A DNA stretch of 64,000 nt from Lutjanus erythropterus (taxonomy: Eukaryota; Chordata; Actinopteri; Lutjaniformes; Lutjanidae): the NCBI GenBank assembly GCA_020091685.1, contig CM034597.1, forward strand, positions 1,744,646-1,808,645, written 5' to 3'. Made by a program: the position numbers and the translations under genes. This document shows, piece after piece, positions 46,139 through 46,351 of the stretch. The number at the start of each line of letters is the position of its first letter. Positions within the stretch are counted from its first letter, which is position 1. The notes beneath the pieces are model-generated. The model was not told where the DNA came from. It made no database searches and worked only from the letters and a program-made list of their open reading frames with translations.

Positions 46139-46351
46139 CTTTGGTGGAGTTGCTCCAGCGGTTCCCCTCAGAGTAGTGAGACAGCGTGAGCAGGTTGACA
46201 CAGGAAGCTCCGGCGCCTGAGCCGAACACGGTGATACGTAACGGGTCGCCGCCGAAGGCTGCAATGTTCTCACTGGTCCAACGCAGAGCCTGGATCTGGT
46301 CCAGCAAACCATAATTCCCTTTGGCTGCCTGGTCACCTGTACTCAGGAAGC
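46139..46351 (-). CDS. nlgn1: nlgn1 coding exon ending in splice insert B
   Basis: The 213-nt exon reads [15 protein letters not shown] onward; the first Gly codon is completed from the missing upstream exon. The acceptor is a pyrimidine tract plus TTGCAG, and the donor is AAAG|GTAAAA. It carries the cholinesterase 'nucleophile elbow' as [10 protein letters not shown], with Gly in place of the catalytic Ser, as in all vertebrate neuroligins, so no esterase activity is expected. The last eight complete codons are insert B, NRWSNSTK, with an N-S-T glycosylation sequon; in mammals this insert tunes neurexin choice and is optional. Here B is continuous with the exon, and no GT is present at its upstream edge (Gly codon GGG at 46164-46166). 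This looks like the mammalian 186-nt exon plus 27 nt of B. Identity is certain; obligatory inclusion of B is inference. Confidence 0.95.

Follow-up and report, generated by a model that had tools for sequence, protein, structure and literature searches.

The window, by which we mean the whole 64-kb stretch of DNA analysed, carries on its reverse strand a neuroligin-1 (nlgn1) orthologue in which splice insert B is continuous with its exon. Pfam assigns the protein to the COesterase family, and a PDB search with the 281 residues encoded by exon 46351-46139 and the next two exons returned 14 rows, with alignments displayed for the top five. Human NLGN1 with insert B (+B; PDB 5ojk) aligned gap-free along the full 281 residues (E 3.8e-180), and the five NLGN1 rows had E-values of 3.8e-180 to 6.2e-167, against 1.3e-154 for the best paralogue. 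The four other NLGN1 rows are versions without the insert (-B), showing a gap of nine residues in 5oj6, 3vkf and 3b3q and of eight in 3biw, and in all nine rows named NLGN2, NLGN3 or NLGN4 (one of them an NLGN1/NLGN2 entry) the matched span was nine residues shorter than the query, the position of that gap lying outside the displayed alignments. By tblastn, exon 46351-46139 matched human NLGN1 at 94% over 72 residues, and the NLGN1-specific insert residues NRWSNSTKG are present with identical peptide. The locus is thus assigned to neuroligin-1 because its best PDB match is NLGN1 +B, because the paralogue spans are nine residues shorter, and because site B is confined to NLGN1 according to the available parts of PMC7486126 and PMC5563082. 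A separate observation concerns 3biw, whose eight-residue gap retains a Lys (SEKGLF) and so disagrees with the mouse -B junction primer discussed below.

The features around the insert are as follows (a slash in a sequence marks an exon border; donor scores come from an approximate weight matrix rather than from a trained model):

46139..46351, reverse strand: nlgn1 exon ending with insert B, acceptor and donor read directly
46139..46165, reverse strand: insert B, the 27 nt matching the segment removed in mouse (human +B primer against mouse -B junction primer)
46160..46168, reverse strand: counterpart of the mammalian proximal donor site, AGG/GGAACC against mammalian AAG/GTAACC (score -5.2 against 6.85)
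46143..46151, reverse strand: N-glycosylation sequon Asn-Ser-Thr within insert B, kept (AAC TCC ACC in the sequence), its Asn glycosylated in human according to PMC5563082
46133..46138, reverse strand: distal donor GTAAAA, immediately 3' of B (score 7.02)
41647..46138, reverse strand: intron downstream of insert B, both ends read directly
41380..41646, reverse strand: next exon, starting GCCTGTTCC (G)LFQRA, phase 1, read directly

The exon measures 213 nt and would measure 186 nt without B. Its borders can be read directly (acceptor ..ctcttgcag/GCTTCC, donor ACCAAAG/GTAAAA), its translation starts FLSTGDQ and continues unbroken through the insert, and from the distal donor (AAG/GTAAAA at 46139/46138) it is spliced to exon 41646-41380 in phase 1. 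An earlier reading made from the sequence alone had proposed that B is fused to the nlgn1 exon, that the Gly codon before it is GGG, and that no GT lies between SHYSEG and the end of B. The exon does run straight through B, the codon at 46166-46164 is GGG, and no GT begins in that stretch before the donor at 46138; the insert, given there as the eight residues NRWSNSTK, is corrected to the nine of NRWSNSTKG, as described in the available text of PMC5563082 and as fits 27 nt.

Further along the reverse strand, the region of nlgn1 after B lies in six pieces, with intervals at 41379-41294, 40931-39156, 38994-31481, 31323-30952 and from about 30870 to 29105 (the last two with approximate edges), and an 86-nt intron at MEQ/GEF contains an in-frame stop. 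This region presumably corresponds to the two large last coding exons of mammalian neuroligins, and the six-piece layout may reflect intron gain or loss. Elsewhere in the window, a scan of 9500-28000 found inverted-repeat pairs at 10713-11004 and 13050-13344 (88% and 93% complementary), which probably represent two copies of one interspersed repeat in opposite orientation, and the ORFs 10374-10811 and 13237-13578 both finish in ..PPTVQRHA plus one residue. Relatives on prokaryote contigs, considered as possible vertebrate contaminants, were set aside (bacterial records whose best segment reached no more than 63% identity, among the best 80 of 568), and none of 34 stretches of viral contigs encoded a relative.

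In-frame omission of B would require an exon end at 46166, with the border AGG/GGAACC, and the proximal GT donor that would overlap the Gly codon is absent here. Only two GT dinucleotides occur in 46190-46120, one being the used donor at 46138 and the other, at 46182/46181, straddling the boundary between the preceding Leu codon and SHYSEG. With this matrix, the mammalian proximal site scores 6.85, the homologous site here -5.2 and the distal donor here 7.02, while the five mapped donors of this gene score 3.78, 5.75, 6.76, 7.02 and 9.91; the closeness of the mammalian proximal and the present distal scores is as expected of competing sites. The best other donor-like 9-mer in 46190-46140 reaches -3.76 and shifts the frame. 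Elsewhere in the exon, use of a GT following 46337 (6.85) or 46274 (5.28) would delete 198 or 135 nt, respectively, from the esterase region, and neither yields a -B protein; the first of these, the donor-like CAG/GTGACC at 46339-46331 near the exon start, would if used remove its 198 nt in frame. Nor did tblastn across the 64-kb window find a second copy of the exon able to supply a -B version.

The nature of the mammalian event can be read from printed primers, here taken from the available parts of two papers. The reverse complement of the human NL1 +B mutagenesis primer (PMC5563082) reads ACT TTA TCC CAT TAT TCT GAA GGT AAC CGT TGG AGC AAT TCA ACC AAA GGA. Among qPCR primers for hippocampal mRNA in PMC7181681 (mouse, by its title and Mm assays), the Nlgn1 +B forward primer starts with GGTAACCG, and the reverse primer specific to the -B form is complementary to CCCATTATTCTGAAGGACTTTT, whose junction spells TCTGAAG/GACTTTT. 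These printed primers show the mouse -B junction at the mRNA level. When +B and -B are compared, the 27-nt gap has five equivalent placements, of which only one begins with GT (GAAG/GTAACC), so that the use of alternative 5' splice sites is the best reading of the mammalian B event; the mouse -B primer fits removal of GTAACC..AAAG. From primers and mRNA we infer that this GT is the donor used in its genomic context, and the human and mouse sequences support the suggestion of the sequence-only reading that mammals use a GGT-based alternative donor there (PMC5563082, PMC7181681). Less probably, B may be a separate 27-nt cassette exon in mammals, an arrangement compatible with the mRNA sequence alone but one that would mismatch the fused exon seen here. 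Splicing at the GT would not yield the GGT CTT that the -B mutagenesis primers of PMC5563082 carry at the junction in place of GGA CTT, and we take this junction as a laboratory construct made by codon deletion.

Taken at this level, the locus is probably an nlgn1 orthologue in which insert B is now a permanent part of the exon. Most likely, the mammalian gene has one exon with two 5' splice sites in competition, separated by 27 nt, of which the proximal (GAAG/GTAACC) would produce -B and the distal, after CCAAAG and with its GT presumed, would produce +B. With G instead of T as the third base of the Gly codon, the proximal site here is GAGG/GGAACC, unable to act as a GT donor; the distal site is then the sole remaining donor, and every transcript should carry B together with its N-glycan sequon. 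B is thus most likely constitutive in this animal, which holds only if there is no other route to -B, and such an absence is likely.

The G-for-T change would need no special selection, as it fits a shift of the surrounding third codon positions toward G/C. In the 17 codons surrounding B, all 17 residues agree with the translation of the human primer, yet 11 of these codons differ, with A or T replaced by G or C at the third base in ten and the reverse in one. Synonymous drift toward G/C can explain the loss of the donor because the peptide equals the human one while 10 of 11 codon differences go in this direction. Across the five mapped exons GC3 is 0.68, and 21 of the 27 Gly codons in this gene's own usage are other than GGT. 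The 11-residue stretch lacked GT in 4.5% of synonymous redraws (21% when the Ser codon AGC, common to human, was held), and GT is likewise missing from 12% of 33-nt segments taken from this coding sequence. The lack of GT across the stretch is statistically unremarkable, and neither a statistical oddity nor selection against a cryptic donor is claimed on the basis of 4.5% in free redraws and 21% with one shared codon fixed; the missing GT has weight because its position coincides exactly with the GT of the mammalian sequence.

How this state arose can be read in two ways, both of which we hold only tentatively. In the first, a whole fish lineage might have fixed +B Nlgn1 by synonymous loss of an older proximal donor, giving up the alpha/beta-neurexin switch that mammals retain and leaving the -B role to paralogues. 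In the second, which we find about as plausible, the proximal GT donor could be a tetrapod gain, so that the present lineage never had one and nothing was lost. The confinement of site B to NLGN1 in the available parts of PMC7486126 and PMC5563082 is in keeping with such a gain, but the nine-residue shortfall in 9 of 9 NLGN2-4 PDB rows, which concerns protein-level spans only, points to an exon ending at SEG as the older state.

Much less probable is that a -B or shortened-B form is still made here through a non-canonical donor, either GG at the homologous site or GC within B. Insert B contains GC dinucleotides at 46159 and 46153, and the latter offers an in-frame site (46154/46153, GGA/GCAACT) that would remove 15 nt to give SEGNRWS-LFQ, the frame being worked out by hand. 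With the matrix used here, however, the GG site scores -5.2 and this GC site -4.61, whereas none of the five mapped donors scores below 3.78, and the 46159 site falls below the best eight sites listed, the lowest of which scores -8.41. GC donors normally need a near-perfect match elsewhere in the site. Least probable of all is that base 46164 is an allele or assembly error atypical of the species, since, although it comes from a single genome and stands within a run of four G, the difference is a substitution rather than a change in run length, is synonymous, and agrees in direction with 10 of 11 neighbouring differences.

What a fixed insert would mean can be approached by analogy with mammals. 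In the available text of PMC7486126, the B insert blocks alpha-neurexin binding and lowers binding to beta-neurexin and MDGA, and that of PMC5563082 reports MDGA binding about 7-fold weaker and beta-neurexin binding less than 2-fold weaker with B, an effect due in part to the glycan at Asn300. By this analogy, Nlgn1 here should bind alpha-neurexins and MDGAs weakly and prefer beta-neurexins. Both papers describe +B as the major or more abundant mammalian NLGN1 form, so an Nlgn1 with B fixed would be similar to the main mammalian form, the minor form alone being absent. The functional contrast with mammals is for this reason smaller than the sequence-only finding implies, and the effect modest. 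If B indeed cannot be omitted here, results of -B studies would not be transferable to this animal, which would itself be a natural test of the purpose of the switch, and protein diversity would be decided by a synonymous base where codon and splice site overlap. No description of splice site B in fish was found in the available parts of PMC7486126, PMC7686559, PMC4976983 and PMC6739339, nor anything on gene structure in those of PMC11790763 and PMC10679506; the specialist zebrafish literature is outside this scope, so the point may be in print.

Overall, the case departs only modestly from an already known splicing event. Mammalian NLGN1 site B has the same nine residues NRWSNSTKG, the same sequon, the same position and the same junction reading frame as the gene described here. 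The two differ in that mammals have GGT, which places a GT 27 nt from the end of B, together with a -B form measured by qPCR, whereas the present gene has GGG and lacks the GT. NLGN2, NLGN3 and NLGN4 resemble the window protein, matching 279-280 of its 281 residues, but they are always -B, as known here from span lengths and from the available parts of the papers, and thus hold the opposite fixed state to the nlgn1 of the window.
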